Positions 16,875-60,073 of a stretch of DNA of 64,000 nucleotides are shown piece by piece. A program made the translations under genes and the position numbers. The notes under the pieces are model-generated. The model saw only the letters and a program-made list of their open reading frames with translations. It was not told where the DNA came from and searched no databases. The stretch comes from Hydractinia symbiolongicarpus. Its lineage: Eukaryota > Cnidaria > Hydrozoa > Anthoathecata > Hydractiniidae. The first letter of the stretch is position 1, and each line of letters opens with the position of its first letter. The stretch covers positions 5,768,001 to 5,832,000 of the forward strand of contig NC_079875.1 of assembly GCF_029227915.1 (NCBI RefSeq), read 5' to 3'.

Positions 16875-16950
16875 ATGAAGACATTTAAACTCAATAAAAA
16901 ATTGGGTTTTTTCTTGCTTTTGTTAAACCTGATAACCATTGTAGCAAAAG
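16875..16950 (+). CDS. Gene B first coding exon: signal peptide
   Basis: The 76-base exon encodes MKTFKLNKK followed by a hydrophobic core (LGFFLLLLNLITIV) and AKG, a standard secretory signal with a small residue at the likely cleavage site. It ends at a GT donor in phase 1, matching the next exon. The ATG follows directly on a perfect acceptor-like tract (tttttgtttag), so the start codon probably sits at the beginning of a spliced exon, with a 5' leader exon or a trans-spliced leader upstream. Confidence 0.75.
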
Positions 16951-19900
16951 GTGAACTTCTGTTATTTATCTTACCAACTAGAAACTTACCATGTTGATAT
17001 CGTCTCCTTGACATGCATGTAATACAATTTTTTTTAGGTTCTGTACAAGAGTATGGTTGGCATTTAATTGAGGAGAATTGGTACTTCTATGTCGAATCAC
17101 CACTTTCCTGGAGCAATGCCTCTTCTTTGTGCGCACTGCTAAATTCTCAACTGGTAGTGTATGAGACAGTGAATGAAAAGGATACAGTGGTTGAGAAATT
17201 TGTTGACAAAACAGATTTTTGGGTTGGTGTAGATGGTAATTGGCAGTGGCTTGATAGAATTTTTGTTGATGGACCTACTTTAAATAGTGATTTCATGCAA
17301 TGTGGATATATGTCTATCACAAGAAAAGCTACATATGCCGAATCTTGCTTTACGGAGAAGAATTTCATGTGTAAAAAAAAATCAGGTTATACTTATTGTC
17401 TTAATTGGGGTCATGGCCTGTCTAATATCTATGTAATGCCCAAATTTTTTTCACATGGTGATAAACAGAAATGGTAAATCTTCTACATACTAAACAGGTA
17501 CTGATGGGGTATCTCTTCTTAAATTAGCATCTATACTTTCATCTAATAAACGCTGGAGGAAGAAGGGAGGGAGTTGGGTCTTTCTTACGATCTTTTGGAA
17601 ATGCTGCAAGGAGCTAGTTGGAAGAGTCTTTTTTGGTGGAATATTTTTATTTAGTAAGTGCTTGCACTAAATGCTGCTTATAGGACTTCAGTTTTTTTTC
17701 ATAATCTCTTTTCATAATCTTTGTTTTCATGTTCTGTTTTTTACTTTTCGCTTTTCACAATCTGCTTTTCTTAGCCTCCTTCTCACAATATACTTTTTTA
17801 CGATCTGCTTTTCTCAATCTGTTTCTTTACGATCTATTTTTTACGATCTGCTTTTCTCAATCTGTTTCTTTACGATCTATTTTTTACGATCTGCTTTTTA
17901 TTGAACGGTATTTTACTTTATTTTAACTTAGTAGTAAATTGATTTGTTTGAAAGACTATATGAATTCTCCTAATTGGATAGCTATTGTTGATAGCCTAAT
18001 TCCCTTTCCATGCACATGCTGTAAAATATACAAAAAATTATAATTTTTTTTTGTATATTTTTATCAGTCCAACCAAATAATTAATGTATGCAACATTATT
18101 TGAACATCAGTTTTTAACCTTAGATACCCTTTACGTTGATGTTATGGAGAAAGCAAATTGGCAGATTAGGGGAGGTTTAAAATACAAAGCCATACCCTAT
18201 CCAATGACATGGACATACAGCAGGGTTATTTGTGGTGCAATGGGTGCAGATCTTTCGGTGATCAGGTCTCCGTGTGAAAATAACTTCATTAATTCACTAC
18301 TCAAATTTCAAGAAGCATGGATTGGACTTCATCGCTCTGTAATTAATAATCACACTTTAAAGCAGGTTGATGGTGAAAGATCTAGAAATTTTAGTAATTA
18401 TCTCAGTACGGTTGACCAAACACAAAGGTATTGCATTTTGTAGTTTAGTATATTGGGCTCAATAGTTTATTAAAATAAAAGTTGTTTTTATTGATAAAAA
18501 AATTGCTACAGGTTTGATTGAATATCTCATTAAAAATATTATAGAAAAGACAAAGGAAAATTGCTAACCAGCACTTAAAAGCAATACATATCAGAGCAAA
18601 TTGTGCCTGGTTTATTGCTTATCTATTGTGGAGCAGTTTAGCAGGGTTAATACGCTAATACTTCTTAATTCTCCTCCAAAAGCAGCAGTAGTTCAGAACT
18701 TTAAATCTCCTTAAATTGCTTATTTTATTCAAGCTTCAGGAACTTTTGGCATTCGCCAGAGTTCGGGTATTTTACCATACTTCTAAATTCTTTTGTAAAA
18801 TATCTTGGCAACTTTAATTTTTTCAAAAATTGATTAATGATTCTTTTTAAATTTTACTTTAAAGAATGACAAGCGTGTTTAGATACGCATTGCTGTGATT
18901 TAGTTTTGCAAACTGGTGTTTTGTTTTCTTGTGCGTTTTTTAGGGATAACAAGACCAACTATATTTCTTACATGGGTGCCAATGGCAAGTGGTTGGAAGA
19001 AAAAATAAACAGCGATAATGCAAATTTAATTAAAAAACCTTTTGTTTGTCAAAATGTAGCTGGTAAGAATGTTCAAAACATAGATAGCATTTCTTTAATA
19101 AAGGGTTTGTATAATTCGTGAAACTATGACAAAAGGAATTAAAAATTATCGAAAAAAACATTATCAAGAGGTAACATTCTTCCTAATACGAACCTTGGTA
19201 TGCTCTGTCATATTTATTTTTGTTTTTTATTTTATTTAAAGAAATTATAAAGCCAAAGTAATTTAATTTGCTGTTTTAACCGTTATTGACTGCCACGGAG
19301 GGTTTACTATACTCTACTTCAAGTGTTGTTTAAAAATATGAATTTAAAAATGTGAGTCTTTAAAAAGAAAAAGTTTGTTGCATCTGACTGAAGATGATAA
19401 AAAGCAATCTTGCCAGAAAACAAAAGTTGAAGATGTAGACTGAAAAAAATATGTAGAAAGTAAAATTAAAAAAGGTTATACTTTGCTAAATATGTACAGG
19501 TCTACAGATTAAAAAAGGTCTCATACTCTTCAATTTAATAGAAATTTTTCTTACTATCAATCTGTTGCAACTATTTAACATCGCTTTTTGGTATCAACAA
19601 CAACAAAAGTGCCTTCTGATGTCTTTTAATTTGAATTCAAAATAATAGTGTGTTTGTGTTACATATCTGAAAAAATGAACACAAAATATATTTAAAATTC
19701 AAAGAAAATTGCATGAGGGCATTTTCAAAGATGGTTTTATTAAAGGATTGGACTTATTCGAAGATAGGACTTATTCAGGCATGGGACTTATTCGAAAATG
19801 GGACTAATTCAAAGATAAGACTTATTTAAAAAAGAAACTTATTAAAAAATGTTTTTTGTATTTTTTAAAGTTTACTTTCTTTTTTTTTAATTTAGAACTT

Positions 19901-22900
19901 TTTTTGGAGCTACCAGGTGCATCGTGGAGTGCAAGTAATAGAATATGCTCTAATAGAGGCATGCAACTCCTTACTATAAAAAGCAAGGAAAAAGCCAAAT
20001 ACATTGAGGAAATGTATGCTCCAAAGACATTTTGGCTAGGGTTACAATATTCACTAAATGCAGAAAATTACCAATGGCTTGACGGTAAGTTAAAGTAATC
20101 AAGTCTGCTGGAATATTAAAATTTTATATAACCTAACTTACTTTTAATCTAAGTAGGCAGGTCAATAACATGTAACGTCAGCAATATGTACTAACGTGAA
20201 AATAATTGATTAGAAAGACTGTGATCTAGGATTATTATAACAAAGAAGATGTATTATAAACCTACTTAAACTACTTTTTAAATCCACCCGGTACGAGTGA
20301 GATTCTATAAAATGACCTGTGTCTGTCTGTCCGAGCATCTGTCCGTTACAAGGTTTTCACAGGAATTTTTTCTGATTTTTGCACAATGATAGCGAAAATT
20401 TAGACCCTCAAATGTAACAAAGTCAGCTCCAAAAATGGCAGTTTTATGCGCAAAATTAGCCAAAACAGTTTAATAGTGTTGACAGCATTTATCGGGATTG
20501 TATCATTATTATTGGTTACACAAAATCAGCCAAAACAATTGGAAAAAATAAAGTGTTTAGGGCATTTCTCAGGATTGTCAAAACAATCCAAAAATGTCAA
20601 CATGCCCTAAGATAATACCAGTTTTTGGTCCGGTCCAGGTAGGTTCATTGAAATTTCGCTTGTTTAACTATTTGTCAACTTAAACTCATTTTCACTGCCT
20701 CTGTTTTTAGTTGTCTCTTAAGATTGGAAGGGAACGCATGGATTTCTCTCTTCCTGTTTGTTTGTGTGTCAAAATGGTAGAGAAGTTTTGTTATCTCCTT
20801 TAAATCTTGACGCTAGGCTGGCAAAAAAAACGGGGTTGAATTACTAGAAATCTGTATTTCATATGGCATTTTGAATATAAACCTATATCACATTTCCTTT
20901 AAAAGTACAATATTAAGTTCTAATTTTTGCAAGACATTGTGAGTAGTGGTAGTTATTTATGTGGGGTTTTTTAATCCTTTTTCTGCTTTTCGGTCACACA
21001 CGATCCGTACGTCATAGCTTTTCCGCTCCTTTTTTTATTTTATTTTTTTGCACAAAGTTACTTATTAATAAATGCTCGAAAACAACATTTTCGGATTATT
21101 TTGAAAAATGTTATAATAGCACTATTTTGGACAAAAAACCCACAATGGAGCCCAAGAATATATGGTTTTTGAGTTATTCTTAAAAAATTCATTAATAAAA
21201 TGTGTAATATTTAAAAAAGGATTTTGTCCTCTTATATTTAGTTTTATTCATAATTTTTATGTTTTTGTAAGTTCGGGTTAATATTTTATTATGTTTTTTA
21301 GCTATGCATAAATCTTGGTGGTCAAAATCAAGCTAGCTGTATTCATTCTGTCCTGTTAGGATTTTTTTTCAGTTTGGTATCAGTGATATATATTCTAGCT
21401 AATATTGTTGTGTTTTTTGCGCTATTTACAAGTGAAATTTATAGCCATATACAAATTATGTTACTTAATGTTTGTTTATTTTATTACAATTTTTTTTATT
21501 TCTAGGAACTGATCTTTCATCAACATATTCTGGTCTTAAGGAAATTAAAATTAAACAATGTGTTCAACTAAAAAATTCAGATAAATGGGAGGAAAGTAAA
21601 TGTGATGCAATTGCTGATGTGAATCTGTGTGAATTCACTCCAGGTATATGTTCTCTAAAAAGAAATATTTTTTTTACAGTTTGCAAATATCAATTTTATA
21701 TGCATCAGTTATCTATCATGTCTTAAAAACAGAAGTGAGAAGTTATTTTTTCAATACTTTTCCCAGGAGCAAAACCAAAATGGGTAAAAAAAATGTCTTC
21801 GTGGGTTGGCTGTCAGTTAATATAATGGTATTTTTGCAATAGGTAAAGCGAGAACACATTTGCTTTATTTCTTTTAAAACGAACCTTTAGACATAAGTAT
21901 GGTTTTAAATATGGTTTTACTGGTTTGTATGTCCAAAAAAACTGGTTGTATTGCTGGTTGTAAAGTGTAATTTTTACTATTATCATCTAAGCTTATCAAA
22001 ATCTGTTCTGTAATTATGTTCAATCAAAACAATCTTAAGTAGTTATGGTGACTTAGTTGGGTTTTAGGAAGAAATCTCAGTTTGTTTACATGTTCAGCTA
22101 ATTCAGTCTATTAACATATTTGATCATTCTCATAACAATCTCTTTGATATGGTGACTTTTTACTAATATATTGAACCAAACTTGACCCTAACAACTTCAC
22201 ATCAATTTTAATAAAATTTATTTTTTTTTCTACAAGAGTGTTGTGCGAAAATACTGTATTTCCATTTTGTCAAAATTTGCCGATTAGGTCCATAGTAAAT
22301 TCAAATTGTTTGACCTTCTAGCAAACTAAATTGTTGCAACCCACAATGCTAATCAATTCTCTTAGAAATTAAAAACAACCAATCGACACAGTGCTTTCCT
22401 GTTTTTCTAATCTAGAAGATTAGAATATCCGAAAAAACGCAACCAATCTTGACTAATACGGTTGGATTTTAGTAAGATTTGGATTTTGCTAGTTTAGCAG
22501 TATTAGAAAAAAAATATTGTAAAATTCGGAAAATATCAGAGGCAAATCAGTGATATTCAGCAAACACACTAAATGGATTTTGGGCCCAATTATTGCTCGA
22601 GTTTTTGATTCACAGAATTTAATCTATGCAAGAAATCTTACTTTAGTCAATCACCAAATTAAATTGTTGACAAATTTTCACCTAAAATTTGAATTATGCA
22701 TTTTAAAACTGTTTTTATACAACAAATTCTAAGTCCTTTTAAAGAGAATTTCCAGGGAACGCTTGTGGGAACTCTGGTATAATTTTTTTTTGTAGTTAAA
22801 ATTTAAAAATATATTTAAACGCTATGTAGTCCTTTAAAAATTAGGGCGAAAATAAGTCAATGCTCTTTAATAAAAGTTTTCTAATGTTGATGTTACGTTT

Positions 22901-25900
22901 AGATCCATGGAAAGACGATCCTTCAAACACAGGTATAATAAGTTTAGTTTATTTAGGAATAGGGATTTTAAGGAATTTTAAAATTATTGTTAAAAAATGT
23001 CAGGACAATGTCTAATTTTCAATGATTGATCAGAACTATTTCAGAGTTCAAATCTGTTCCTAAAATTTTTTTACAATTTATTTATCACTATGCTTGTATT
23101 AAATTTACATTTTTCAACATAAATCAACGTTCCCATACAATAATATTTCCTGGTCTAAGATATTTTATTTTATTTTGTATTTTTAATTTCTGCTATGGTA
23201 ACATGAAAGCAGTAGTGACTTAGTGGTAGATCAGGATTCCGGATTTAAATGCTGCTCAATGGTTAGCCTGTTGGTTAAAACAATAACCTCTCCTGACATA
23301 CTGATAATAGCTTAATCCTTACGAGAATGAATTCAGCCATGCTTTGCGAGATGGGGAGATTTCACTTTAAAAAGGGAAAAATGGTCCCTCTCCTTGTAGT
23401 CTGGCTACTGTACTGTAACTGGTCTGTTATTAATAGCTGTTTAAACTTTTGCAGGTGGTAATTGTGAATTGGTGATGAGTCATCGATGCTTTATGAAAAT
23501 TAATTCAAGTATGTCATGGGATAATGCAAAAAGTACCTGTCAGAAAAGGGATTCACATTTAGCTTCTATTTTAAGTGAAGAAGAGAATAATGCAATTTAC
23601 GTAATGTATGGTAGAACAGATTACTGGCTGGGTGGAATTTACAGTTCAAAACATTCTGAATATATCTGGGTGGACGGTGAGTTATTGCTTCAGTTATTTT
23701 GTTCTTTGTCAATTTATTGTGGCAATTATGTATTTGGAGTAACAGAATTACCAAAACCATAATGGATTTCACTTAATTTGTTCACAATTTAAAATTAAAT
23801 TAAGCTTTTTTAATAACTAATTTTGTGTTTTTGGAAATGTAAATAATTTAATAACTTCTCCTGGATCAGAATCCTGCAACATAAATATAACGTTTTTACT
23901 GTCTTATGTTTGTGCGTAAAGCGTGTAAACTGCCTCTCAACCAACTTATTTTTATTCACTGCTCTGCTTTACCTTCAATGACTTGTCAAGAAAAAATAAA
24001 CGGCAGCGAGAGCGTTAAAGGGGAACTCAATACAATTTATTTTTGATGCAGCAACAGCATTTTGTTTAGGATACTAAATTATAATAATGAACATCACGTC
24101 AATGTGTGCAAAAAATAACAAACAAATATACTGAAGACCTTTTTTAAATTGGAACGTTTTTACACTGGTCTTTGCTAGACTTATCAACATGCGATTGTTA
24201 AAAAATGCTGATGGAAATAGGCTTTTTTCAGCAAGAGAAATTTAAAAAAACATTGGTCTTAGAGGATTCGTTTTTGGTTATAGTTATTGTATTAAAAGAA
24301 CTTCAAGGTGTTTCAATAAATATTCTTGTAAAACAACAAAACGCTGAAAAAACTTTGTATACTATTCCAAAGATTTTTGGAAAGTACGTAGCCTAAAGGT
24401 TGATTTGTGCTTCACTTTATTCTACTGTATTAACAATATTAAACTGAAAAAGTTAAGTTCTTTTATCAAACAGGCCCTTAAGACATCGTTTAGGGCGATT
24501 TAAATACCTAAAAATCTTTTTCCAATTAGGGCTGATAATTAATCATGATTGTGATTATCCTAGCTCTCGTCCAACTCTCATCCTTCGGCGGATTAGGTTG
24601 CTAATTTTCACAAATTTTAATTGTCAATTTTTTTTTCCTCACTGCTTGTGTATGAATCTCTCTACCACGTAGTTGGTTTCTTTTCGAATGTATTCTCTAG
24701 GCTTTTAAGTGTAATGTCAAACGTCATCTTCCTCTTTATTTAGCTTTCTGCCTAGTAGCGGCTTTGGCCTTGCAGGAACCTATGTAAAACAAAAAAATCG
24801 TAAATGTACTGCACATGTACATAGTTGTTTCAAAATGTTTTTTTAGGAAATGATTTTATTTACAAGAACTATCACACAGAAGCATTTACAGAATGTGTCT
24901 ACATGCATAAAGACAAATGGGAGACAGGCGATTGTTTAAGGCTGATGCCCTTTCTTTGTGTCAAATCGTTGCGAGGTAAGATACAGACTAGAAAAAATGA
25001 AGAAAACAAAATGGAATCAATCTTGTAGTTCTGATACAGTTTTGTACTTAAGGTTGTAATGCTTGATCTTGTGTAGTCTCTTTGATATATTAACTCTAAC
25101 TTTTCTCAAAACATCTTTGGTAGTGATATAATAATGCCAGCTTTTATAGTAAAATTACATACGAAAGGTATTTTTATAAAAGGATTTAAAGTTTTGTTTC
25201 AATTTGGAAGTTTTTAAATTAGAGGTTTGAACTATGGAAAGGAAAAAACAAAAACCTTCTTAACGCTGCATACAACACCCCAAGAGGAAATTTTTTTTTT
25301 CTTTATGAATCTCTGTTGAGCTGGCAGAATTTAAAATGGGATCCTTTTTGCTGCTCTATTTACTACCATGACTATTGAAGTACGAAGCATTAGAGAAATA
25401 ATAAGTATTAAAAACAGAAGTTCCATGTTGCAGTACGGAAACCTATTATTTTTACAAGCTCGTGAGCTTGTATTAAAACGCAAATGTGTGAATTGAAATT
25501 TTTGCCTCTCTGAGCACCGAAACGGGAGTATTAAGTACATCGATTTTACAAAGTTTGGTTAAAATGTAAGCAAAAGGCAAATTATACTGTAAATAATGAC
25601 GAGAATGGAATTCTTTTCGCTACGCTAATGACACGCCAACTGAACGTAAATTTTCCGATTTTTGTTTTCCGATTTTGTCTCCGCGCCATAAGTGCACAGG
25701 ATTCTTTTTAACGAAGTTTGCTATAACTACTATTTCCTCTTTAACTATTTCCTTTTTCGAACGATCTAAGTGATTCTCTTATACCCCGTTCTTTTTTTCT
25801 TTTTTTTTTTTTTGGGGGGGGGGGGGGGGGTGGTTTTACAAATTTAGTTGGGGCTTGTGTTCTTTCTTCTTTCTTTCAGTCAGTTTACCTAGACTGACCC

Positions 25901-34775: not shown

Positions 34776-34833
<58 letters not shown>

Positions 34834-34834
34834 T

Positions 34835-34880
<46 letters not shown>

Positions 34881-37800: not shown

Positions 37801-40800
37801 CATATTTCCAAGAAAATTATGTATTGATTCAAATGTTTCTGCAAACGCCTCCTTTCTTATTTGTTAAGGTGTTTCTTTTAAGTAGTCACTTATCTTTATG
37901 CAAACTGATTTTTAACTAAATGCATCTTTTGAATAAACGGCTATTTAGATAAAAGATTTTTGCACGCTCGGGTATATGAGAGAAACATTATAGCCTATGT
38001 TTCACCACGTAAAGGGCTCTTCTGCTAAATTAGCACAACGATGATGAAACTTTTATTTGCTTTTTGTCTAGTCATGTTATGTCCTGGTTTAATGGCTACA
38101 AACACCTCGATTATGAAATGAGTTTCTTCTTTTAGCAACCTATATTAACGTGACCTGCAAATTTGATTTGAAGTATACACCGGCATTAGGAGATAAACAA
38201 GGTTCGCAATGGCGCGATTTTGAGAATGCCATATTATCAGAGGTAGGAAGATATTTCTCCCATTGTTTCAACCTTCTTACTTGAAATAAAGGGTTTTTGG
38301 CCATTTTTCAAAATTCAAAATAACCCCGACCCTTTATGGAATACCAGAATTGTAAAAGGCTTGCAAGCATGAATATATATTGGTATAGTCATAATTAGTA
38401 CTATTTATTCTAAACTAACCAAGTAGGTTAAGATGCATAGTCTATCTTTGACATCAGAAAGTAAAATTTAACAAGCTTGCATGAATATAACAAACGTGAT
38501 TGTTAGTGCGTGCTGTTATTGCAACTTGAGCCTCAAAAAAATCAATAGTAGCATAGTTAAACGTACCATACCTAGACATACAATCTTGGTTAAAGTATTC
38601 GTAGAAAAAAAGTAGTGACTCTCGAACTTTAACTTACATTCCCGCATTTTAAACTTGTCAATGTTTAGAGCAGGTGAATTTTGAACTTTCCATAGTTCAA
38701 TTGCCGATGTCAAATATCTTAGGTTGTTGGGTTAGTTTCAGACTTTTAAAATGCGCTAAATGGTAGTGACATCAACATGGTCACTTTTCCCTTGATTTTC
38801 CAAGCCTCTTTGGCTCCGACGTGAATTATTTCATAATGCAGGAATGCTATAATGTGCGATTAGCTGATTCTAACGGATCCCACTACGTCTAAATATGCAG
38901 GCTGTAGACAATTGACTATTTAATGATTTCGGCCATATTTATCGAACATTAAAAAACACATTTGTCTACAAACTTTAGTCAAAAGTTGCAGGTTGTGCTA
39001 TATGCACTTTTTTATAGCCTGTTTTGCATTATAATATTCGTCTATTTTTTCTAGAAGTATTGTGCTCAGTCACTCTAAAAATGCCAATAATGTTCTTATG
39101 TTTTTCACATTTCAAGTAAGCAGCGTTATCGCACAAAAAGTAAGATAAAGTTGCATGTTATCTGTTTGTTACCTGTGTTGTGATCTCATTGTGTCTTGTA
39201 GACTAAATTCATGTACGAAGATACATTTGGTGATGTTGTATCTAGTATCAAACTTTCCGACGTTAGGTGTGTATATTTACTTTTTGGATTTATTTTGAAA
39301 ATTTACCCAGGCCAATGAGATGACGTTAAGTAGTAGTTAAGAATATATCGGAAGGTATCGGATCTTGGGTACCGGCACCAGGGTATTTAGTCTCGGAAGT
39401 CGCCTGCGAAATAGAAATCCACTTTTAGCATTGATTATATATTTAATTATATATTATATAGTGACTTTCAATTTGTTGATTATTTTCTGTTTAGTTAAAA
39501 ATGTCTGAGAAACGTTTTTGAGATTTTTTTACTGTTAATTTCAGGCGTGGAAGTATCCTAGCGTCTTTTTCAATCAATTTCCATCAATTCGATTCTTACC
39601 AACTTGTATATCTACAAGATAGTTTACAGAATGAAAAGGCGATTGGTAAGCTACCAATTGTGGATGGTAGTCCTTCTTCAATTCTCACTGATTCTGGTAT
39701 GTGCCATGACACTCGCTAGCGGCTTTACTTGCAATACAATTTTATGGATAAATAGACAGATAAAAAATGCAATAACATTTTAAATGTTTTTCCGTGCATT
39801 ATTTGTTGAACCTGCAATTTCATGAAATGAGTTAAATTAACAGTAATTATACATTCAAGATAAACGAAACAATTAATCTATATACACTCAAATCGTACAT
39901 GTTTTTTGCTGCTTTGAGTATGCATTTATAATAATTGTTATGCTTATTTTAAGTGTATAACTGCTATTAATTTAATTTTTCAAAAAAATATCCTTATACG
40001 TTTTACCTTGAAAATGGATGGGTAGCCATCTGATAATTTGTAGATTTTGTTGTTGTTTTTACCCACGAAACCATTTAACTTACGTTGACCAATGTCCCTT
40101 AAATATTTTACCTCATCCATAACAACTGTTTTACATCCGTACAAAATATTTTTATTTATTTCAGTTCCAACTGGTCCACCATCCAACATACATGTTGTAT
40201 CTACTTATCCAACATCTTTTAATGTATCGTGGAGTGAAGTTGATATAACATTACAAAATGGAAACATTCAGGGTTACCTGTTGTTTTATCGTGAAAAGTT
40301 TAAACCTTCGGACCCGTATGAAGTGTATGGCTCTGTTTTATATTGGGCTGAAATAACTGGATTAAAACCTGGTACAGTGTATGTCATCAGATTGTTGGCA
40401 TTTACTGCTGCAGGTAATGGAGTGGCATCTAATCTGATGGGTGTTAAAACTTTAGAAGCAGGTATTGTAATTTAGTCTATTTTTAATGTTTGAAAAAACA
40501 GTCGGTTTTTAATTGAGTAGGTTTCATAAATGGAATAATAATTCTTCACCTTGGGCAATATCAAACTTAGGTTTGTATTGATTAAAATGCTGCAGAAACT
40601 CAAAATATAGTTCGATCATGGAAATGAAGGAAAGTTTACCCAGAAATCTAAATTCCTAATGTTAAATGTGTATAAAAGCTTGATGTATTACAAGCACACA
40701 GGACAAAGTAATTACTTTGATTATTTTTGATAATTTTACATCATTATGACAATATCTGTAAAATTTAAATTGCAGTATGGATTTTTGTAATGGTTTAATC

Positions 40801-43800
40801 GCTTTAACAAACCTAATTGAAATCTACCTACCTGTACTACATGAGTTTTTGTTTCGTTTTTAAGACACCCAGAGTCACTTGAAACAGGAGTGAAAACATC
40901 TTTGGGCTCTCGAAAGAAAAGTAAACTCGATTTTGCAAAATTGTCTTGAGATTAAACTGTTATTAACTTTTTATTTATTTTTTTAAATTAATTATACCAC
41001 ACATTGTTGAAAAAGTTGAACACGCCACGTCATAATTTTAAAAAATTTAAGTTGCTCGGATCACCGTCTTCAAATGATCTACACAGTTAATTTTAAAATT
41101 TTTCTCTCCCTTGGACAACTATGGTAGCCCTTAGGTAGACAATATATCATGTATCACTCCCATTCCGCCAAAAAACGATTTTGATTCCTTCAAGTCAGCA
41201 TACGAAACAATAGGAAATTTATTTTAAGAAACTTATAGGAACTTCCTAATCTGTTTTTTAATCATTTAATAAATCAATTTATTCTCTGTTCAGCCCCATC
41301 TGCACCACCGACATCTTTGACTGGTTTTGCAATTGATGCAACATCAATATATGTGCAATGGTCTGGTGTTGATATGGATGATATGAATGGCGATCCACTT
41401 GGATACAATGTGTATTTTAATGATGGATACAACACTAACAAGGCAATTTCACCTTTCTCTCCACCGCACATTATATTAAATGGCTTACATCCAGTCACTA
41501 CATATGTTATTGATGTGTGTGCTTTTAATGCAGTTGGAGAAGGACCATGTGAAGCAACTGGAGTCACATCGAAATTGTCAGGTAAGAAAAATACTTGATG
41601 AATGTTCGACGATTCTCCTTCCACGAACCAGGTGAAGATTTTACTTTTTCTTCTTCGATTTTTATAAAACTTGTAATTACAAAAAACAGATTTCCATATA
41701 GTGAAGTGGAAACCTTGCACCGGTTTCACTGCTGTTTTTTTGACGGAAGTTAAAAGCCATAAAAATTGAGTTTTACTTCGGTTAGAATGATAAAAAATGA
41801 AACATTTTTAATCACGCAAACCGGTTTAGGTTCACTCCAGGTCTCATGCAGACATTTCTCAGTAATATAGCGTGTGTCTTCTGGATCTTAAAAACCTTGA
41901 CTTTCAGAGTCAAGGTTTTTAAGATCAAGATCAGGTTTTTAAGTAAGTTTCCTAAACCTGGGTCACCAAATCCGTTTCGGAATGGACGGGTTGATGACGT
42001 CAAACCTTAATATCTCCGCAACCGTTTGTAAAAAGTACATAATCCTCTACATTTTCTTGATCATCGTTTAAAGGTCTATACGATGAAGGTAACAGGGATA
42101 TAAATTTCTGAAAATTTTTTTCGCGTTTTACCGGGCCATTGCTGACGTCAGCAAAATTTTTAAACCCTTATATGTCCTTAGTCGTTCGTAGAAAAGATAT
42201 GATCCTATACATTATTTTGATCAGCGTTTCAACTTCTACACGTTACAGGCAACGAATAAACTAAATTTCTCCAATTTTTTTTTGGATTTCCAATGCTGAC
42301 TTCAGCAAGACGTCTTAAACAACCAACTTTTTCAATGTCCTATTGCCTAAGTGGATTTTTCCACGGGTCTTTATAAACTAGTTATTACTATTATTACTAT
42401 CATTATGCAGGATAGCTTCTTCAGTTCCTATTGGTACCACTATCAACGAGGTTCCTGCGAAGGGGGTCTTAGTGCATTTAAAGCTCCATTTTGAGCTACG
42501 AAAGTCGTGGAAGCACAGCAATCGCTCAACTAGACAACCGCCTAAGATATCAATCCTATTCTCAGATATACTAGACAAAAATGTTTTATTTGATTGTGCT
42601 TCAAAACCTTTAATTTATATTTATAATTAAAAATCACTTAGAAAGTGACAAAAAAGCTTAAATACATTAAAATCTTTTTTTAAAAATGGCAAAACATTAA
42701 TGGTAAAACTTTCTTTTAGCTCCAAGGATTCCTCCAGGCAACCTATTCGTCTACTTTAAACTTCACGATAGTTTAGCTGTCAAATGGGATCATATAAGCT
42801 CAGAAGTAATTGACGCTTATAGAATTCAATACTATATGATAGAAAGAGGGAGGGTTGCTGTAGAGAAACCTGATATTAAAGAAGTAACATTGGTACCCTC
42901 ATTTCAAACGTACAATTTGAAGTTTTTGTCACCAAATTCTAAATATGTGATTAAAGTTTATGGTGTGAATGGTGCGGGAGATGGTGTTCCTTCTCTTGTT
43001 ATTGCAGGTGATTATTTTGTTTTTCGTTTTCTTTTTTTCACTCACACCTGTGGGTGAGAGTGTTTAAAATGCAACGAAAATTCGGCGGTGGTAACAACAA
43101 ATTTAATTAGGGCGTCGTATAGACCAATATTCGCTGTATCCCCCTATACGGATTTTTTGATGGTTATTTTATTTTATTTTTTTAAGAAATATATTTGTCT
43201 GTTGCCTTAGTTTGAGTGTTAGAACCGCTGCGGTTACTTGTTATATGTGGATTGGAGATAACTGATTTAAAGCTAAGAATTTCAACGGTTAATTCAGAGT
43301 CGTGAATTTTAATTGTTAATTCTACAGGACTTGTCACATTAATGTGACAATATACTAAGCAACTACACAAATATTTTACGAATCTCAAATTTAAGCTATT
43401 TTTTATCCGTTTCCGAAAATTTTATGACGTAACTGGCCGAAATGTCTTGTCATTGGTCTGGGCAATGAACAATAACTTTAGAAATTACAAGGGGAGGGCG
43501 AATCAACGAACCCAACATTAAGGAGCCCCTAATTAGCCCAACAGGAATAGCTTCAAGGAAAGTGTTTCTTGAGCTTGTGGTTTAAATTTGTAATACAATA
43601 AAAAAAATTTCTTTCTATAGAAACTTGCAAATGTCCAGCTACTGTCCATAGTAACTTCTATGTCAATCCACCATACACACAGCGAAGTGACAAAAACCAC
43701 CTAGATGGAGTGTTTTATAACATCCTTCCAGATATGATCAAAGCTGCTTGTGGCAAGTGCAACCATAGAATGTCCAAAGAAACAGTTGTTGATTTCATTT

Positions 43801-46800
43801 ATAATGGAAAATTTGGTTTCTCTTTTAAACCTAATGGGGATCGTGTGACCGAGGATGTAGATGAATTTACTGATTTATCATTTCCCTTGTCAGTAAATCC
43901 TGCGAAAAACGATTCGCTGAATTCCAAGTATGTTCCACTGCTCTCCTACCCGGGTGCTGTTTTTATTATCAAGAACTTAGATGCATCAAGTCACGTAAAA
44001 AAGATGATTGGTGATGTGCTGGCCACGTGGCCAATATTTATGCTCAATTTTTTCTTCACTCTTATATCCGGCGCCTTGGTGTGGTTTCTGGTAAGTTTAA
44101 GGTTTTTTTATAGCTTTGTGTAATTTTAAAGGAATTTTAGGACTGAAGGTCGAATGTCGATTCTCTCGCAGCTGAATTCAAGTCATCTTGTGTAGCTTAT
44201 TTCTGTTTATATGTACATACCCTGAAACAAATATACGCAGAAAGAAATTTAGATATAAATTGAAAACAAAAGGATTGTAAAAAGGTAGTTTTTTAAGGTG
44301 TCAAAGATGACTGATCAACTGCCCAACTTAGTTCACCTTCAAGATTTCCTTTGCGGAATAACGTAAACCTAATATTCTTTTTGGAGCATTGAAATGTTAA
44401 ATTTTTTAAGAGGCGATAATCTTTGAACTCTGTTCTTAACACTTTTCCGCGTATTTCTAGGAAATATATTTCATTCAAAAACCAGAAGCCACCTTTTCAC
44501 CATCTTTAAAAAATTTGATTGGCTTACGCCAAGGGTGGTACTGGGCGTACATTACACAGACAACTTTAGGGTGAGTGAGTGTTTATTGACAAAATTGAAG
44601 AACTAAAAACTTTTAAACCAAAAATAGTTTTCTATTCTTTAGATTCTAGCATATTTAACTTCTGATTTTTGGGGATCACCTCTCCATAGTTGTAATTTTA
44701 GGGATTACTTTCCACAGCTTCTAATTTTTTCGGGATTATCCTATCTTAGTTCCGTTTTTCTTGGATTACCTCTACTGATTTTTGGTAATAATTTCTATAG
44801 CTTTCGATCTATAGGAAAACTACCCATTTTAGGTTTCGATTGTCGTGGATCAACATTTTTCCCTTTTGATTGGACAAGTATTAGTGATTGTAAATAATCA
44901 ATTTTTCCATTAGAATTTTCGATGCACAATGACGTCATCAAAACTTTAAAAAATACTAAAAAAGATCCCTTTTTTGCTGAACTTAAAATGGTATAAAGTT
45001 CCAAACAAAACCAACTGGCTCCCCTCCTTCCTGGACGAATAATTAAAAAATATCAATGGAGTTCAGCTTGCTTAACGTTTATCTTTTAAGATTTGAGATG
45101 ATATATATTGCAATATTTGAAGTCGAATAGTTCTCAAAATTAATTTTTTTTAATCATCATTTCTAGGTACGGTGATTTTGTACCAATAGGAAAAGCGTCA
45201 CGATGTTTTGCTGTTATTTGGATTTTCACGAGTTTGGTGATGTCATCTTTACTCCTTGGAGCGTTGACGACGGCATTTACCGCCGTTCAGACGACAAAAA
45301 CAAAATCGATGTACGGCGTGAAGGTATGACGAGAAAAGTGGAAAAACAAGGACTTATGTTTACAACAACTTTGTATTTAACCACGTGACTTATGTTTACA
45401 ACAACTTTGTATTTAACTACGTGACTTATGTTTACAAAATTTCGTATTTAACCACGTGACTTTTACAACAATTTTGTAATTAACCACGTGACTTTATTTT
45501 TAAACTTCATCTTTTGTATTTACGTTTTTAGGTAGCTGCACTCTCTGGCTCTTTTGAAGAGCGGCTGGCAATATTAAAAAATGGTCAAATTGATAAAGGT
45601 AAGAATTGGTTTAGAATTAATTTTTTTTTCAAGAGATTGAAAGTCTTTAACCTTGTTTTATTTAAGTACTAATTCCCGTTAAACATTGTGTAAAAATGTG
45701 AGGGTGTTGTGAGGGTGGGTGTTGTGAGGGTGGGTGTTGTGAGGGTGGGTGAATAGTTACAGGTGGTCTAATCAAAATTAATTAATGTTTGATTTGCTAT
45801 GAAATAACAGAACATCAAGTTAATACATTTATTCGCTTCACCATTCACGATAAGACGCTGAAGATAAATCTCCTTAAAAATTAATTCCTTTTGTTTCTCT
45901 TTAGAAAAAACTTACACAAGTGTATCTGAGTTGACACAAGCGTTGCACAACGACCATGTTTTTGGTATACTTATCGATGCGTACACAGCCGGGAGTAATC
46001 GAGACATCCTTGACGACCCGCTACTTCATGTGGCTAATTTGATTAAATATCCGCGTTCGTTTGGTGTTGTTCTCAGTGGAGGATTAGCGAATGTTGACCA
46101 AGAGGTTTTAGATTATGTTAAGACAAACGAGGGGAATATTTTAGAAGTATTGGAAATGTTCACCCAGAAGTTAAAGGTATTTACGCATTGTGGTTCAGTA
46201 CGTTTAATCCTGAATTTTTGACCGTGTATTTTTAAGAGTTCAGTCAGTTTTGCAGAAGAAAATACGCAAGGAACTACCATTAACCATTTTTTATAACATT
46301 TTCACTACAATCTATCAATCACTGCCGCGTGTAAATTTGACGACTCTAAAAATAGGTCAAAATAAATCTCCCTCCATCCTCAATGTTACTATTACTAAGA
46401 GCAGGGAGTAACAAGCCTCTACCTTAATTTAAATTTTTTTTTAACAGACGATCATTTTTGTTTCAATTTAGCCTCAAACTGCAGCTAAAGAAGTATCGTT
46501 ATTTGATGCAGAATCTACTGTGTTGAGAACAGGAATAACCGTCCTCTCTGTTTTGTTGTGTCTGACGCTGTTGTTAGGGTTTGTGGCCTCACAGCTATGC
46601 AAGAAGAAAAGCAGAATAAAAGTAAAACCGGTGGAGAGAGGTACGTAAGAAACAAAAACTAATGTTCTTTTGAAAATCAGCATTCAAGTTTAATTCTCAC
46701 CATTTCATTGTGAAATGCAAAAATCAATGCGAAAGCCTCGCGCAAAATTGTATTCGACTAACGTCATATCTATAAACAGTAAATGTGGCTCTCGGTTCGG

Positions 46801-47217
46801 CATAAGAAGTCCCTGATAATCCAACTTTTTTTGTTTTGATATTAAACGTGTCTATTTCTTATAGCCACCAAGGAAGCAGATGAAGAGGAAGCCATATGTG
46901 ACTTACAATGTTGTATCAAAACGTTCTATGAACAGTTTCATAAGAACATCAACACATTATCGTCCCGTATTGACGCTGAACGCGTCAAATTGTATTTTGA
47001 TCGTGGTTCAAGTAGTTTAAGGATACAACCACGCCAATGTAGAACAGCATTAAGACATCCTAAAAGTTCTGCAAGAGGTGATAGAGCAAGTGAAGATGGA
47101 AGTGATATAGTAGCAGAGCATCCTGAGAGCTTTGCAAGAAGTGATACTTGTAGCGGAGAACCTGATTCAATACCGGACGTTGAAAGTGACGTGGACACAA
47201 CGACACTAAGTGACTAA
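16875..47217 (+). CDS. Gene B: lectin-TSP1-SEA-FN3 receptor with iGluR-like, potassium-type channel core
   Basis: Thirty-five exons join in frame from ATG to TAA (6489 coding bases, 2162 residues). Approximate residues: signal peptide 1-25; C-type lectin-like domains 26-141, 142-282, 283-391, 402-518 and 565-672; Ser/Thr-rich stalk 673-772; unrecognised module 773-916; TSP1 917-986; Cys-rich 987-1064; TSP1 1065-1117, 1118-1174 and 1175-1231; SEA-like 1232-1339; FN3 1340-1630; S1 and TM1 1631-1787; pore with GYGD at 1824-1827 and TM2 1788-1876; S2 1877-1989; TM3 about 2010-2029; tail to 2162. Exon coordinates are given with each module. It is inferred to be a surface receptor-channel. The union of lectin exons and channel exons in one gene rests on shared strand, unbroken phase-1 introns and the absence of any intervening stop or new signal peptide. 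Two adjacent genes are the main alternative. Confidence 0.65.
17038..17385 (+). CDS. Gene B exon: C-type lectin-like domain 1
   Basis: One 348-base phase-1 exon encodes a whole domain: YGWHLIEENWYFY, LSWSNASSLC, the WVG core (DFWVGVDGNWQWLD) and the final C...C pair (AESCFTEKNFMC). The EPN or QPD and WND calcium-sugar motifs are missing, so calcium-dependent sugar binding is not expected. A protein or non-classical ligand is more likely (inference). Confidence 0.8.
17796..17898 (+). repeat. Short intronic tandem repeat (unit about 42 bp)
   Basis: About two and a half copies of a pyrimidine-rich unit with tacgatctgcttttctcaat follow lectin exon 1. The resulting phenylalanine-rich open frames in this intron are not genes. 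Confidence 0.85.
18124..19062 (+). CDS. Gene B exons: C-type lectin-like domain 2
   Basis: Exons 18124-18427 and 18944-19062 join in phase 2. They show MTWTYSRVICGAMGADLSVI, then AWIGLHRS in place of WVG or WLG, and a closing FVCQ. The C-terminal half (ANGKWLEEK) resembles the region before the last two cysteines, but the cysteine pattern is reduced. The acceptor at 18124 was chosen because the two upstream AG sites lead into stops in phase 1. Confidence 0.65.
19896..21643 (+). CDS. Gene B exons: C-type lectin-like domain 3
   Basis: Exons 19896-20084 and 21506-21643 join in phase 1: ASWSASNRICSNRGMQLLTI, then TFWLGLQYS, then YQWLDG, then QCVQLKNSDKWEESKCD and LCEF. This is the ordinary lectin-fold pattern with the WLG core, but the first strand is short and the sugar-binding triplet is absent. 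The 1.4-kb intron includes an interspersed repeat-like stretch (about 20285-20640) and no gene. Confidence 0.75.
22903..22932 (+). CDS. Gene B 30-base linker micro-exon
   Basis: A 30-base phase-1 exon between an acceptor (acgtttag) and a GTATAA donor encodes a hydrophilic ten-residue linker (DPWKDDPSNT) between lectin domains 3 and 4. It is symmetric, so inclusion or skipping keeps the frame. It is supported only by splice sites, phase and position. Confidence 0.45.
23455..24975 (+). CDS. Gene B exons: C-type lectin-like domain 4
   Basis: Exons 23455-23676 and 24847-24975 join in phase 1: CELVMSHRCFMKI, MSWDNAKSTCQKRDSHLASI, DYWLGG, YIWVDG, then CVYMHKDKWETGDC and FLCVK. This is the clearest lectin fold of the five, with the extra N-terminal cysteine pair of long-form domains, yet it has no EPN or QPD motif. 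Confidence 0.85.
25790..25830 (+). repeat. T-run followed by a run of 17 G
   Basis: A run of T is followed at 25814-25830 by 17 consecutive G. Such a tract may fold into a G-quadruplex and is also prone to sequencing error. It lies in the large gene B intron. Confidence 0.9.
26267..26394. repeat. Long inverted repeat, arms of about 33 bp
   Basis: The left arm is 26267-26300 and the right arm is 26362-26394. They are reverse complements apart from one extra base in the left arm. The arms contain ACATTATTTGCG and the CGTTTCGGGTGTT half. It is compatible with a small foldback MITE in the large gene B intron. Confidence 0.85.
29342..30538 (+). CDS. Gene B three duplicated linker micro-exons
   Basis: Exons 29342-29383 (42 bases), 29517-29564 (48) and 30491-30538 (48) each start with the same acceptor context (tttag then ATGC) and end at a GT donor, in phase 1 to phase 1. 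They encode related short acidic or alanine-rich linkers (DAGSGAIEASKEIL, DAEAAARISSPKSRMP and DAEAAARISSSKPRMP). The second and third belong to a recent 952-bp tandem duplication, and the first looks like an older copy of the same unit. Use in mRNA is inferred. Confidence 0.45.
29509..31434 (+). repeat. Recent 952-bp tandem duplication in gene B
   Basis: 29509-30460 and 30483-31434 are almost identical, separated by 22 bases (offset 974). Each copy contains one 48-base linker micro-exon, a short hairpin around CATAGAAATCTATG and the same intron text. The stretch around 29342-29480 resembles part of the unit and is probably an older copy. Very few substitutions separate the two main copies, so the event is young or an assembly artefact. 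Confidence 0.93.
32197..32520 (+). CDS. Gene B exon: C-type lectin-like domain 5 (divergent)
   Basis: A 324-base phase-1 exon encodes about 108 residues: FSFKEASSTCLSKGGVLL, then EIWIDLKYNGSVWLLG in place of the WVG/WxWxD core, then NCSSITRCGKKQVPCDTKLKVLC. The cysteine spacing and single-exon layout match domain 1. It has several N-x-S/T sites and no sugar-binding triplet, so it is the most diverged of the five. Confidence 0.65.
32789..33307 (+). CDS. Gene B exons: Ser/Thr-rich mucin-like stalk
   Basis: Exons 32789-33040 (84 codons) and 33260-33307 (16 codons) encode a stretch dominated by T, S, P, E and K, with ESTTT and KELTTTK units repeated, plus IPTTTTT at the start. Such segments are heavily O-glycosylated and act as rigid extended stalks (family knowledge). 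At the DNA level it is an AAC/ACC-rich tandem repeat, so length variation between alleles is likely. Confidence 0.8.
33610..34164 (+). CDS. Gene B exons: unrecognised Cys-containing module
   Basis: Exons 33610-33873 (88 codons) and 33997-34164 (56 codons), both phase 1, encode about 144 residues with YHCGVKAYAKM, EKLCLTLSGVYDW, ECMVLNYSF and MRMCFVFDNKKL. Alternating hydrophobic strands and paired cysteines suggest a compact beta-rich extracellular domain. I do not recognise the family and assign no function. Confidence 0.6.
34389..34598 (+). CDS. Gene B exon: thrombospondin type-1 repeat 1
   Basis: A 210-base phase-1 exon encodes HWSRWSDWQPCDVLCGNGTQ, with the W-x-x-W-x-x-W-x-x-C core, then a cysteine-bearing extension ending SCTESCLLIG. 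The extension and the next exon share a cysteine-rich character and may form one unit. Confidence 0.85.
34776..34962 (+). repeat. (ATC)n microsatellite in a gene B intron
   Basis: A long CAT/ATC trinucleotide array runs through this stretch, with interrupted CACCAT and CCAACG variants toward the 3' end. It creates artificial open frames of polyserine on the plus strand and polymethionine on the minus strand, which are not genes. Confidence 0.95.
35380..35613 (+). CDS. Gene B exon: Cys-rich module between TSP1 repeats
   Basis: A 234-base phase-1 exon encodes 78 residues with KRCDHF, YHCSKN, KQCVGY, MDCDAV and RLCKC. It sits between two TSP1 exons and may pair with the cysteine extension of the preceding exon. 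I do not recognise a named family. Confidence 0.6.
35944..36102 (+). CDS. Gene B exon: thrombospondin type-1 repeat 2
   Basis: A 159-base phase-1 exon encodes TTWLPWSECSQSCNGVRSRK, then RFCALTSENHC and CNTDVLCP. It is a short TSP1 repeat with the tryptophan and cysteine core intact. Confidence 0.85.
36823..37760 (+). CDS. Gene B exons: thrombospondin type-1 repeats 3 and 4
   Basis: Exons 36823-36993 and 37590-37760 are 171 bases each, exactly as in gene A. Repeat 3 reads FTQWTQWSNCYASCGLGHRV with RNRSC. Repeat 4 reads WGSWSSYSGCTKPCNSGVRV with RRYCTSP. They are the direct equivalents of the two TSP1 exons of gene A. Confidence 0.9.
38136..39696 (+). CDS. Gene B exons: SEA-like domain
   Basis: Exons 38136-38242, 39202-39266 and 39545-39696 have the same lengths (107, 65 and 152) and phases as in gene A. 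The possible self-cleavage turn is G1291-S1292 in RRGSILASF. The opening VNVTCKF-type strand is INVTCKF here. Overall the domain has diverged from gene A except around the G-S turn and SYQLVYLQDS. Confidence 0.55.
40165..43007 (+). CDS. Gene B exons: three fibronectin type III domains
   Basis: Exons 40165-40461, 41294-41581 and 42720-43007 (99, 96 and 96 codons, all phase 1) encode three FN3 domains with the expected P-x-x-P-P start, core tryptophan and L-x-P-x-T-x-Y or equivalent. The first two are almost identical to gene A at the DNA level; the third (APRIPPGNLFVYF) is strongly diverged. Confidence 0.9.
41884..41926. repeat. Perfect 19-bp hairpin in a gene B intron
   Basis: The arms 41884-41902 and 41908-41926 are exact reverse complements around a five-base loop (ttcag). 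It lies between FN3 exons 2 and 3 and shows no link to a coding element. Confidence 0.9.
41990..42313. repeat. Two-unit diverged intronic repeat
   Basis: Two diverged units of about 160 bases follow each other. Both carry a line resembling ttgatca-cgttt, then a uracil-rich segment, then GCTGACGTCAGC or GCTGACTTCAGC. It looks like an old interspersed repeat in the intron before FN3 exon 3. Confidence 0.5.
43621..44090 (+). CDS. Gene B exon: S1 ligand-binding half-lobe plus TM1
   Basis: A 470-base exon begins ETCKCPATVH, continues with PPYTQRSD, LDGVFYNILPDMIKAACGKC and YVPLLSYPGAVFII, and ends with TM1 (WPIFMLNFFFTLISGALVWFL, residues about 1767-1787). The layout is that of an iGluR S1 lobe. 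A ligand arginine at the usual place is not evident: the residue before YVP is K here and R in gene A. Confidence 0.7.
44461..45323 (+). CDS. Gene B exons: potassium-type pore loop and TM2
   Basis: Exons 44461-44570 and 45167-45323 encode GWYWAYITQTTLGYGDF (GYGD at 1824-1827) and TM2 (about 1838-1860), followed by LTTAFTAVQTT at the place of the iGluR gating motif. The phase-2 intron again interrupts the first glycine of GYGD. W-x-W-x-x-x-T-x-T-T-x-GYGD is the canonical potassium filter context, so potassium selectivity is expected but unproven. Confidence 0.88.
45357..45492 (+). repeat. Intronic tandem repeat, units of about 35-45 bp
   Basis: Four imperfect copies of a unit carrying CACGTGACTT and TTTACAACAA follow the pore exon. 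A separate short repeat (gagggtgggtgttgt, three copies) lies at about 45705-45750 in the next intron. Confidence 0.8.
45532..46176 (+). CDS. Gene B exons: S2 ligand-binding half-lobe
   Basis: Exons 45532-45598 (67 bases) and 45905-46176 (272 bases) match the gene A lengths and phases. They encode YGVKVAALSGSFEERLAI (first residues from the preceding exon), FGILIDAYTAGS and FGVVLSGGLANVDQEVLDYV. The GSFEERLAIL segment and the D of IDAY are conserved with gene A and fit the S2 lobe of iGluR-type clamshells. Confidence 0.7.
46472..47217 (+). CDS. Gene B exons: TM3 and cytoplasmic tail
   Basis: Exon 46472-46640 encodes TM3 (GITVLSVLLCLTLLLGFVAS, about 2010-2029) with KKKS after it. Exon 46865-47217 encodes a 117-residue tail with LSSRIDAERVKLYFDRGSSSL, then a serine- and acid-rich end (TTLSD). 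The DRGSSSLR block is shared with gene A; the gene A heptad-like repeat is absent. Confidence 0.82.
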
Positions 47218-58743: not shown

Positions 58744-59332
58744 TTCATCATCACCATCATCATTCTCGGCTTAACGTCCGTTTTCCATGCTAGCATGAAC
58801 TGGACGAGGTATATTAATGACCCTCTTCCAATCTGATCTAGACTGTGTTAGATCTAAACTCACCTTTCTCTGTATCAAGTCTGTCCTTATAACCTCCTAC
58901 CAAGTCTGCCTCTGGGCTTTGCCCCAGGAACTATCAAGTCTCTACACTTTCTTACCCAATTACCCCCTCCATTCTTTCCAAGTGCCCCAGCCAATCCAAT
59001 CTTCTTATCTGGATAACATCTTTAATTCTACGGAGACTTAGCCTGCTTCTTAACTCATCTGAACTCTTTCTGTCTCTCAAACTGGCGTTACACATCCACC
59101 TAACCATTCTCATATCATTCCTTTCTAAACAGATAAGATCTTCCTGCTTCACTGCCCATGTCTCACTATTGTACAACATAACACTTCTTACACAGGCCTC
59201 ATATAACCTACCTTATAACTCAATTGACAAGACTCTGCTAGTCAACAAAGGAAGTAACTCTGAACTTTTTTCCAAGCAGAACCTATCCCGCAAGTAACAC
59301 TTCTTCCAACACCCCCTTCACTGCATAACATA

Positions 59333-59974
59333 TCACCTTAAGTAACAGAAGTTCTCAACTAACTCCAACGAGCCACTGTTGTACATCATTGAAGCTGGAA
59401 ATACTTCATTCTCTATAATCTCACCTTTGCAATGCTTGCATAGAAACTGAATGTCAGCTCTTAACCTTCCACCAATACTACTGCACTTCTTATGTACCCA
59501 ATGCTTGCAAGTCTGACAAATAATTGAGTTACTACCAACCCCTTTATTGCAAACTCCACAAGGCCACTTTCCAACTACAAGGTTACACTTGGCTGCAATG
59601 CTACTAATCATGACTTTAGACTTTGCTGTGTTCACCCTTAGCCCTTTCTCTTCTAGTCCTTTCTTCCACTTCTCAAACTTTTTAACTAATTCTTCCATCG
59701 ACTCTGCTATGAGAACCAAATCATCTGCATACAATAACTCCCATGGACAACCTGTTCTGAACTCCAGCGACAGCGCTTCTAAGACTAGAACAAACAACAA
59801 AGGACTAATTACAGAAGCTTGATGTACACCAACATTTACACTAAATTCATCACTAAGTGAATCGTTAATCCTGACACGACTTCTAGCATTGCTGTACATA
59901 GACTGTACCATTGTAACTAGCCACTCATCCTCACCTAATTTTTTCATAGCCCACAAAATAACATTACGTGGCAC
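59333..59974 (-). pseudogene. LINE reverse-transcriptase segment with zinc cluster
   Basis: An open stretch of 213 codons encodes PRNVILWAMKKLG, then SPLLFVLVLEALS, YADDLVLIAESMEELV and the C-x2-C...C-x2-C-H cluster. The residue before SPLLF reads ASVI where functional copies usually have GSVL-like text, another sign of decay. It is a fragment of the surrounding LINE, not a host gene. Confidence 0.85.
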
Positions 59975-60073
59975 TCTATCAAAAGCTTTCTCTAAATCTA
60001 CAAAGGCAAAATAGAGATTCTTTCTCTTTCCTAAATACTTTTCCTGAAACTGTCTGAGTAAAAATATAGCATA

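Follow-up and report, generated by a model that had tools for sequence, protein, structure and literature searches.

In this work, a stretch of 64,000 nucleotides from the hydrozoan Hydractinia symbiolongicarpus (hereafter the window; contig NC_079875.1, positions 5,768,001 to 5,832,000, written below as C1:5768001-5832000) was analysed for the gene LOC130633755, and the assembly to which it belongs (480.9 Mb, 76 contigs) was searched for relatives. The gene spans window positions 16875-47217 and consists of 35 exons with 6489 nt of coding sequence for 2162 amino acids (aa). The splice sites were read by hand and the exons joined by script; all introns are GT-AG, the frame is intact across the 35 exons, and the single stop codon is terminal. 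The chain from signal peptide to stop that a sequence-only reading of the window had proposed was in this way rebuilt exactly, and residues 149-2162 are identical, letter for letter, to RefSeq LOC130633755 isoform X2 (P0002). Isoform X2 does not include exons 1-2. Exon 2 has a homologue in the first lectin domain encoded by the neighbouring gene LOC130633709 (aa 37-143; E 2.6e-9), which supports it, and exon 1 is backed by its signal-peptide-like sequence in the hydropathy profile. The parts of the gene are the following:

16875-16950, plus strand: exon 1, start codon (AG before the ATG) and signal-peptide-like segment, aa 1-25; not in isoform X2
17038-17385, plus strand: exon 2, C-type-lectin-like domain 1 (Pfam; homology to LOC130633709); not in isoform X2
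18124-19062, plus strand: exons 3-4, C-type-lectin-like domain 2 (Pfam; alignment with LOC130633709)
19896-21643, plus strand: exons 5-6, C-type-lectin-like domain 3 (Pfam; alignment with LOC130633709)
22903-22932, plus strand: exon 7, short linker (present in RefSeq P0002)
23455-24975, plus strand: exons 8-9, C-type-lectin-like domain 4, the best Lectin_C stretch, aa 420-515 (Pfam)
29342-30538, plus strand: exons 10-12, short linker exons, of which 11 and 12 are copies inside a 953-bp tandem duplication (RefSeq; repeat comparison)
32197-32520, plus strand: exon 13, C-type-lectin-like domain 5 (Pfam; alignment with LOC130633709)
32789-33307, plus strand: exons 14-15, Ser/Thr-rich stalk (by eye)
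33610-34164, plus strand: exons 16-17, extracellular segment without a Pfam family, conserved in LOC130633709 (alignment)
34389-34598, plus strand: exon 18, TSP1 repeat 1 (Pfam)
35380-35613, plus strand: exon 19, cysteine-rich insert between TSP1 repeats 1 and 2, without a Pfam family, conserved in LOC130633709
35944-37760, plus strand: exons 20-22, TSP1 repeats 2-4, with WxxWS motifs at aa 1072, 1125 and 1179 (Pfam; motif search)
38136-39696, plus strand: exons 23-25, SEA-like domain with Gly-Ser at aa 1291-1292 (alignment with relatives; profile)
40165-43007, plus strand: exons 26-28, three fibronectin type III (FN3) domains (Pfam)
43621-44090, plus strand: exon 29, lobe S1 (aa 1631 to about 1760) and most of membrane segment TM1 (hydropathy; core alignment)
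44461-45323, plus strand: exons 30-31, pore helix, putative filter TTLGYGDF split by an intron, and TM2 (PDB search; pore tree)
45532-46176, plus strand: exons 32-33, S2 lobe (profile comparisons; model)
46472-46640, plus strand: exon 34, end of S2 and TM3 (hydropathy)
46865-47217, plus strand: exon 35, cytoplasmic tail with a DRG(S/A)SSLR motif common to four paralogues, and the stop codon (alignment)

We interpret the locus, from its sequence, as a single gene for a very large cell-surface receptor channel. The continuity of the frame is weak evidence for one gene, because 27 of the 34 introns are in phase 1, every inter-module intron included; it was therefore dropped as a proof, and paralogues were used in its place. 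Since introns of this phase allow any pair of module genes to be joined in frame, and RefSeq models of this kind are predictions, the locus could also hold two adjacent genes, one for a secreted lectin and one for a channel, that were wrongly fused in both the sequence-only and the RefSeq models. However, three paralogues carry the order TSP1-SEA-FN3x3-channel and two of them also lectins in front of it, namely the tandem copy LOC130633709, which is collinear with the window gene from the first lectin domain as far as the tail, and LOC130642791, at another place on the chromosome; this argues for one gene and not two. The tandem copies keep their domain order although, exons 22, 26 and 27 apart, synonymous sites between them are at or near saturation, so the order appears to have been maintained for a long time and not by chance, and a false fusion is highly improbable. 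The proposal of one gene with a lectin, stalk, TSP1, SEA and FN3 ectodomain was borne out by Pfam, by isoform X2 and by the collinear neighbour. When the tandem copies were compared over 16 exon pieces, the ratio of nonsynonymous to synonymous substitution rates (dN/dS) was 0.09 to 0.48 in 11 pieces, with three lectin pieces at 0.13 to 0.41. On the other side of this comparison, one piece gave 0.78 at a dS of 0.03, four of the 16 had no estimable ratio (the S1-TM1 piece and one lectin piece among them), and dS outside exons 22, 26 and 27 was 1.4-3.2, saturated or nearly so.

The core of the window gene is not the lone oddity that it had been taken for: it also occurs in four other proteins of H. 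symbiolongicarpus and in a partial anemone protein, and it recurs in a family of single-exon genes described below. LOC130633709, LOC130642791, LOC130632586, LOC130634855 and Actinostola QZH41_013793 all have a SEA-FN3x3-K+-filter core; TSP1 repeats are present in the first three and lectins in the first two. LOC130633709 is the upstream neighbour on the same strand, with the same plan and six Lectin_C stretches; its pieces lie at C1:5741273-5780639, and its 3' part occupies the window from position 1 to about 12640. LOC130642791 has four Lectin_C stretches followed by TSP1-FN3-channel, and adds CBM_14 and one QPD motif. LOC130632586 reads TSP1-SEA-FN3-channel and gave no lectin match in Pfam, while LOC130634855 X2 starts inside SEA. 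Outside Hydractinia, the domain order was found in part: the partial Actinostola protein runs from the last part of SEA, recognised by alignment, through three FN3 domains to the core. No Hydra, Clytia or Nematostella relative surfaced in protein searches that were limited by shared words and length, and absence from these animals is not claimed. Two of the protein searches scored 7990 and 7991 candidates only; the first gave one relative and the second added P0006, while another search gave four. The eight other new rows of the second (P0007-P0014) all carry precomputed PF00041.

Two observations concern the history of these copies. Exons 22, 26 and 27 are 91-98% identical to those of LOC130633709, the other matching exons 68-81%, and no intron matched. 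The near-identical blocks (window 37586-37764, 40160-40475 and 41283-41584 versus 3105-3283, 4325-4640 and 5204-5505) end at most 14 bases from splice sites, and this looks like exon-limited gene conversion with the neighbour. The channel region of LOC130642791 is present in two copies 3.6 Mb apart (C1:12461453 and C1:16052774; L114 and L115) that differ at 139 of 3522 positions, which suggests either a segmental duplication or an assembly duplicate.

On the spliced window protein, Pfam identified five Lectin_C stretches (E 1.6e-45), four TSP_1 (7e-28), three fn3 (2e-33) and Ion_trans_2 (3.6e-9). The profile check confirmed these four families, but not SEA, Lig_chan or SBP, none of which matched up to E 1. 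The SEA-like domain was supported mainly through its relatives: among five cut-out domains two matched the Pfam SEA profile (best E 2e-4), but the window's own domain stayed below the cut-off (E 0.049; 14.2 bits versus a gathering score of 26.4). A profile of the SEA-like domain against the PDB ranked adhesion GPCR F1 first (E 0.17), and Gly-Ser was aligned with the GSIVAGY segment of that receptor. Gly-Ser is the cleavage position of SEA domains. At the presumed cleavage position the pair (aa 1291-1292 in the window protein) is invariant in all five hydrozoan members, and the Actinostola protein reads SG.

The SEA-like domain bears directly on the possibility that the protein is a mechanosensor or an adhesion-coupled channel, in which force on the ectodomain, maybe via a self-cleaving SEA domain, would move the core without any small ligand. 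The invariant hydrozoan Gly-Ser with its adhesion GPCR alignment and the long stalk of TSP1 and FN3 modules are consistent with this mode of action. It appears unlikely, given the weak SEA match and the SG of the anemone protein.

Hydropathy analysis gave the signal peptide and three membrane segments at about 1763-1792, 1839-1864 and 2010-2028, the first two of which flank TTLGYGDF. The order S1-M1-pore-M2-S2 is therefore present behind a signal peptide, with S1 assigned by position only. TxGYGD was found in all six multidomain cores examined, with P0005 reading GTHGYGD. A genome pattern search for the filter gave no matches; in the window gene an intron divides the filter. Among the best 60 matches listed in the PDB, the window core alone retrieved K+-channel-type chains, and so did a profile of the six cores. 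These matches, together with an S1 that has no significant match of its own, would suit an ordinary K+ pore with two membrane segments that was fused to an adhesion protein, and whose S1 and S2 are unrelated to periplasmic binding proteins. The pore tree is contrary to this, because six cnidarian and 13 bacterial GluR0-like sequences were separated from 51 ordinary K+ channels by one branch with support of 100/98. In a larger tree with 16 single-exon members added and 37 K+ channels, the same split was obtained at 86/82, on few columns. Thus, the pore is placed by its sequence in the line of descent of GluR0 and the ionotropic glutamate receptors (iGluRs).

For the comparison with bacteria, prokaryote genomes were scanned with the alignment of the six cores; this returned 76 loci, five of them GluR0-like. 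L022, one of the five, is interrupted by an in-frame stop and was not used; the four kept (L024, L025, L027, L036) all contain SBP_bac_3 (E 2.6e-19 to 1.8e-22), Lig_chan and Ion_trans_2 in Pfam. They come from actinobacterial contigs, are mutually close, and have the filter TMTTIGYGD. The best PDB match of L024 was 2pyy, 'ionotropic glutamate receptor bacterial homologue', and vertebrate GluA2 was also matched. With nine plasmid GluR0-like sequences, all without GYGD, they form the bacterial set of 13. Aligned by hhalign, the six cnidarian cores matched the four actinobacterial proteins at E 2.2e-19 over 192 columns that run from TM1 into S2; with 16 single-exon frames added, the whole core matched the bacterial GluR0-like sequences at E 1.7e-30, and S2 only (22 cnidarian versus 13 bacterial sequences) at E 1.6e-10 over 111 columns. 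When S1 and S2 were added to the bacterial pore profile (n=13), all six cnidarian cores gained 9.2 to 18.1 bits, whereas 71 of 71 ordinary K+-channel loci shifted by only -4.7 to +3.4 bits. With the bacterial S2 profile alone, five of the six cores outscored every one of 306 controls that were shuffled or reversed. Furthermore, when a profile built from S2 of 14 members was run on all PDB sequences, Slr1257 (1iit, 1ii5) ranked first at E 2e-4; Slr1257 of Synechocystis is, we take it, GluR0. Lig_chan matched below threshold in P0006 (6e-6), P0001 (1.7e-4), P0003 (2.3e-3) and P0005 (0.045), whereas the plain K+ channels L023 and L059 gave no match at E <= 0.1. No member reached the gathering score of Lig_chan (PF00060), which is 30.8 and is a curation threshold, not a biological feature; the best relatives came to 26.6 (P0006) and 28.5 bits (L134). 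Taken with the pore tree, the bit gain, the S2 alignments, the S2 search in the PDB and these Lig_chan matches make the fusion of an ordinary K+ pore very improbable, and they bear out the proposed iGluR-type core with a K+ filter. On this evidence, lobe S2 too is assigned to the GluR0/iGluR line by descent.

Several results weigh against this reading of the protein. The window protein itself has no Pfam match to Lig_chan or SBP, P0002 and P0004 gave no Lig_chan match up to E 0.1, and the joined S1 and S2 of six members gave no periplasmic-binding family up to E 10 in any of them. The anemone core fell under the best control with the bacterial S2 profile, and none of the six cores exceeded the controls with the bacterial S1 profile (best 1.8 versus 4.2 bits). 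In an earlier, shallower column-shuffle test the S2 score was reached by 12 and the S1 score by 35 of 300 shuffles. S1 alone gave E 0.17 by hhalign at first, and E 0.0073 over 27 columns in the larger set. In the S2 search against the PDB, AncQR came next at 0.0094 and unrelated rows followed from 0.011, so only Slr1257 stands clear. For the pore, GYGD in a GluR0-type sequence predicts K+ selectivity and does not prove it. For the ectodomain, none of EPN, QPD and WND occurs anywhere in the window protein. EPN or QPD, together with WND, are the calcium-sugar motifs of sugar-binding C-type lectins, and their absence means that classical calcium-type sugar binding is not predicted, and speaks against taking the protein for a simple sugar receptor.

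Structure models were also obtained with AlphaFold. From six rows, P0006 was modelled with a mean predicted local distance difference test (pLDDT) of 62.9 and S2 blocks at 26-55. From ten rows, four of them bacterial, the anemone P0001 reached a mean of 69.5 and a predicted template-modelling score (pTM) of 0.32; its S2 had pLDDT 63-87 over residues 611-690 and 35-62 beyond, and its S1 30-65. In this model the predicted order of strands and helices in S2 resembles a lobe of a binding protein, though bacterial rows went into the model and it is therefore no independent evidence of homology. Fold searches returned FN3-bearing chains only, among the 50 best matches listed of each; they barely probed the other parts, and nothing about the core is concluded from them. 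Of the clamshell expected between the membrane segments, lobe S2 is supported by profiles, PDB search and model, but S1 has no significant match and low model confidence.

The same core was found outside the multidomain genes. With LOC130634855 as the genome query, exon pieces of multidomain members and long open frames elsewhere were recovered, and all 17 distinct open frames inspected contain GYGD. By eye, most of the single-exon frames begin like a signal peptide and continue with S1, TM1, a TTVGYGD-type filter, TM2, S2 and TM3, and Lig_chan matched all ten that were scanned, below threshold (E 1.6e-6 to 0.018). A search with one single-exon relative gave at least 38 matches; open frames of 420 codons or longer account for at least 24, one of which (on C10) matched over the pore only. 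Match counts for large families are lower bounds. The single-exon members (L122, L126-L140 and others) lie on C4, C5, C7, C11, C13 and other contigs, with clusters at C13 7.74-7.85 Mb and C5 21.36-21.37 Mb. The single-exon and the multidomain members form separate groups in the larger pore tree (97/97 versus 91/93), beside the bacterial ones, and the tree supports no sister pair among the three. By sequence, K+-filter iGluR-like receptors are a sizeable family in Hydractinia, in which the window gene is placed in the multidomain branch. Such a family would also offer candidate partner subunits. The window protein, with its large ectodomain, might accordingly be a non-conducting receptor or regulatory subunit that keeps its pore sequence while serving in adhesion or assembling with single-exon relatives. 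We consider this quite unlikely, as TxGYGD is kept in six of six multidomain cores.

The ligand site is important for the question of what opens the channel. In iGluR-type lobes the S1 arginine binds the carboxylate of the ligand, and an acidic residue of S2 binds its amino group. All 13 bacterial GluR0-like sequences have the arginine of the ITxxR-type motif, and its position is Val or Ile in all six multidomain (FN3-type) cores, in an alignment that holds four of the 13 bacterial sequences and is weak over S1. An alternative ungapped register, set by eye, places Asn, Lys, Val, Met or Asp there, again no Arg. The S2 Asp is kept in all six cores. It is likely, provisionally, that the carboxylate-binding arginine was lost in the multidomain cores, likely rather than shown because the S1 homology is itself not significant. 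The natural ligand of the clamshell is probably not glutamate held in the classical way. An amino-acid-gated K+ channel like AvGluR1 or GluR0, whose lectin-TSP ectodomain would serve only for anchoring or clustering and not for gating, would agree with a core homologous to GluR0-like receptors, with the conserved S2 acid, and with single-exon relatives that have the same core and no such ectodomain. The apparent replacement of the arginine by Val or Ile, which is subject to the uncertain S1 alignment, speaks against it, and we regard this mode of gating as improbable.

The best explanation as a whole is a one-gene receptor channel with a GluR0/iGluR-type K+-filter core, to which we assign a probability of roughly 0.7; its sequence-level part is very likely correct, and any one gating model, taken singly, is doubtful. 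We hypothesize that four subunits form an inverted, iGluR-type K+ pore gated by the S1-S2 clamshell, and that the TSP1-SEA-FN3 stalk would occupy the place of the iGluR amino-terminal domain. The lectin-like tip would bind a partner on a surface or in the matrix. Engagement or tension, perhaps after autoproteolysis of SEA, may then shift the clamshell, for which a small ligand, contact, force and SEA cleavage are the candidate triggers. An open channel would release K+ and calm the cell, so that the shift, by altering K+ efflux, may damp or reset excitability.

The polycystin-1 family also combines a large ectodomain, which has lectin-like modules and cleavable ones, with a membrane part related to channels; it differs from the window protein in its TRP-like membrane part and its lack of a GluR0-type core. 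To our knowledge, AvGluR1 of the rotifer Adineta vaga has no lectin, TSP1, SEA or FN3 ectodomain. GluR0 of Synechocystis (1ii5, 1iit) and the bacterial homologues (2pyy; L024, L025, L027, L036) share with the window core the order S1-TM1-pore-TM2-S2, the K+ filter and S2. In comparison with GluR0, the window protein adds a third membrane segment, a cytoplasmic tail and the lectin/TSP1/SEA/FN3 ectodomain; its core apparently does not have the carboxylate arginine, and the likeness of S1 is one of position. The single-exon relatives (L122, L126-L140) have the same core as the window gene and differ from it by one open frame, the lack of such an ectodomain and a separate clade in the pore tree. 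In the excerpted text of PMC12332018, K+-filter iGluRs are described from Synechocystis (GluR0) and one rotifer (AvGluR1) and are cited as evolutionary links. AvGluR1 is, by that description and not by comparison of sequences, an animal iGluR-type receptor that keeps a K+-channel filter, like the window gene, and has the architecture of eukaryotic iGluRs, unlike the window protein (PMC12332018). As far as the text of the sources was covered, the terms GYG, potassium and selectivity filter appear nowhere in the main text of a metazoan survey (PMC6307864), and GluR0 is mentioned once in a phylogeny paper of 2025 (PMC12226733). No description of a lectin/TSP1/FN3 iGluR-like channel was found in the titles and abstract openings searched, so the architecture and the family look undescribed within reach of that literature. 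Public databases already hold these genes, labelled as uncharacterized proteins.

Other features of the window include a recent 953-bp tandem duplication at 29508-30460 and 30482-31434 (98.7% identity) by which one 48-nt exon became two (exons 11 and 12), and a long ATC/CAT microsatellite in intron 18 at about 34780-34960. On the minus strand, open frames at 59333-60094 and 60727-61317 resemble, by eye, pieces of a reverse-transcriptase element (YADD). A dispersed repeat is present at 1419-1670 and 58755-58995 with 91% identity.

The presence in one cnidarian genome of some two dozen single-exon relatives, and of five or more multidomain genes, makes a curiosity into a family, one that allows tests of the origin of iGluRs, of the loss of the K+ filter and of the gain of large recognition ectodomains. 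Transgenesis is established in Hydractinia, which also has its own contact-recognition biology, and function is therefore open to experiment. Tentatively, and as a picture that is less likely right than wrong, Hydractinia, and perhaps hydrozoans at large, may possess a big unrecognised class of K+-filter GluR-like receptors, with many single-exon, chemoreceptor-like genes. The multidomain branch of this class would convert contact of its lectin-TSP1-SEA-FN3 ectodomain with surface, mucus, microbe or neighbouring tissue into K+ efflux. It would mean that these animals have a fast inhibitory contact sense, whose core was kept from the GluR0 stage of iGluR evolution.

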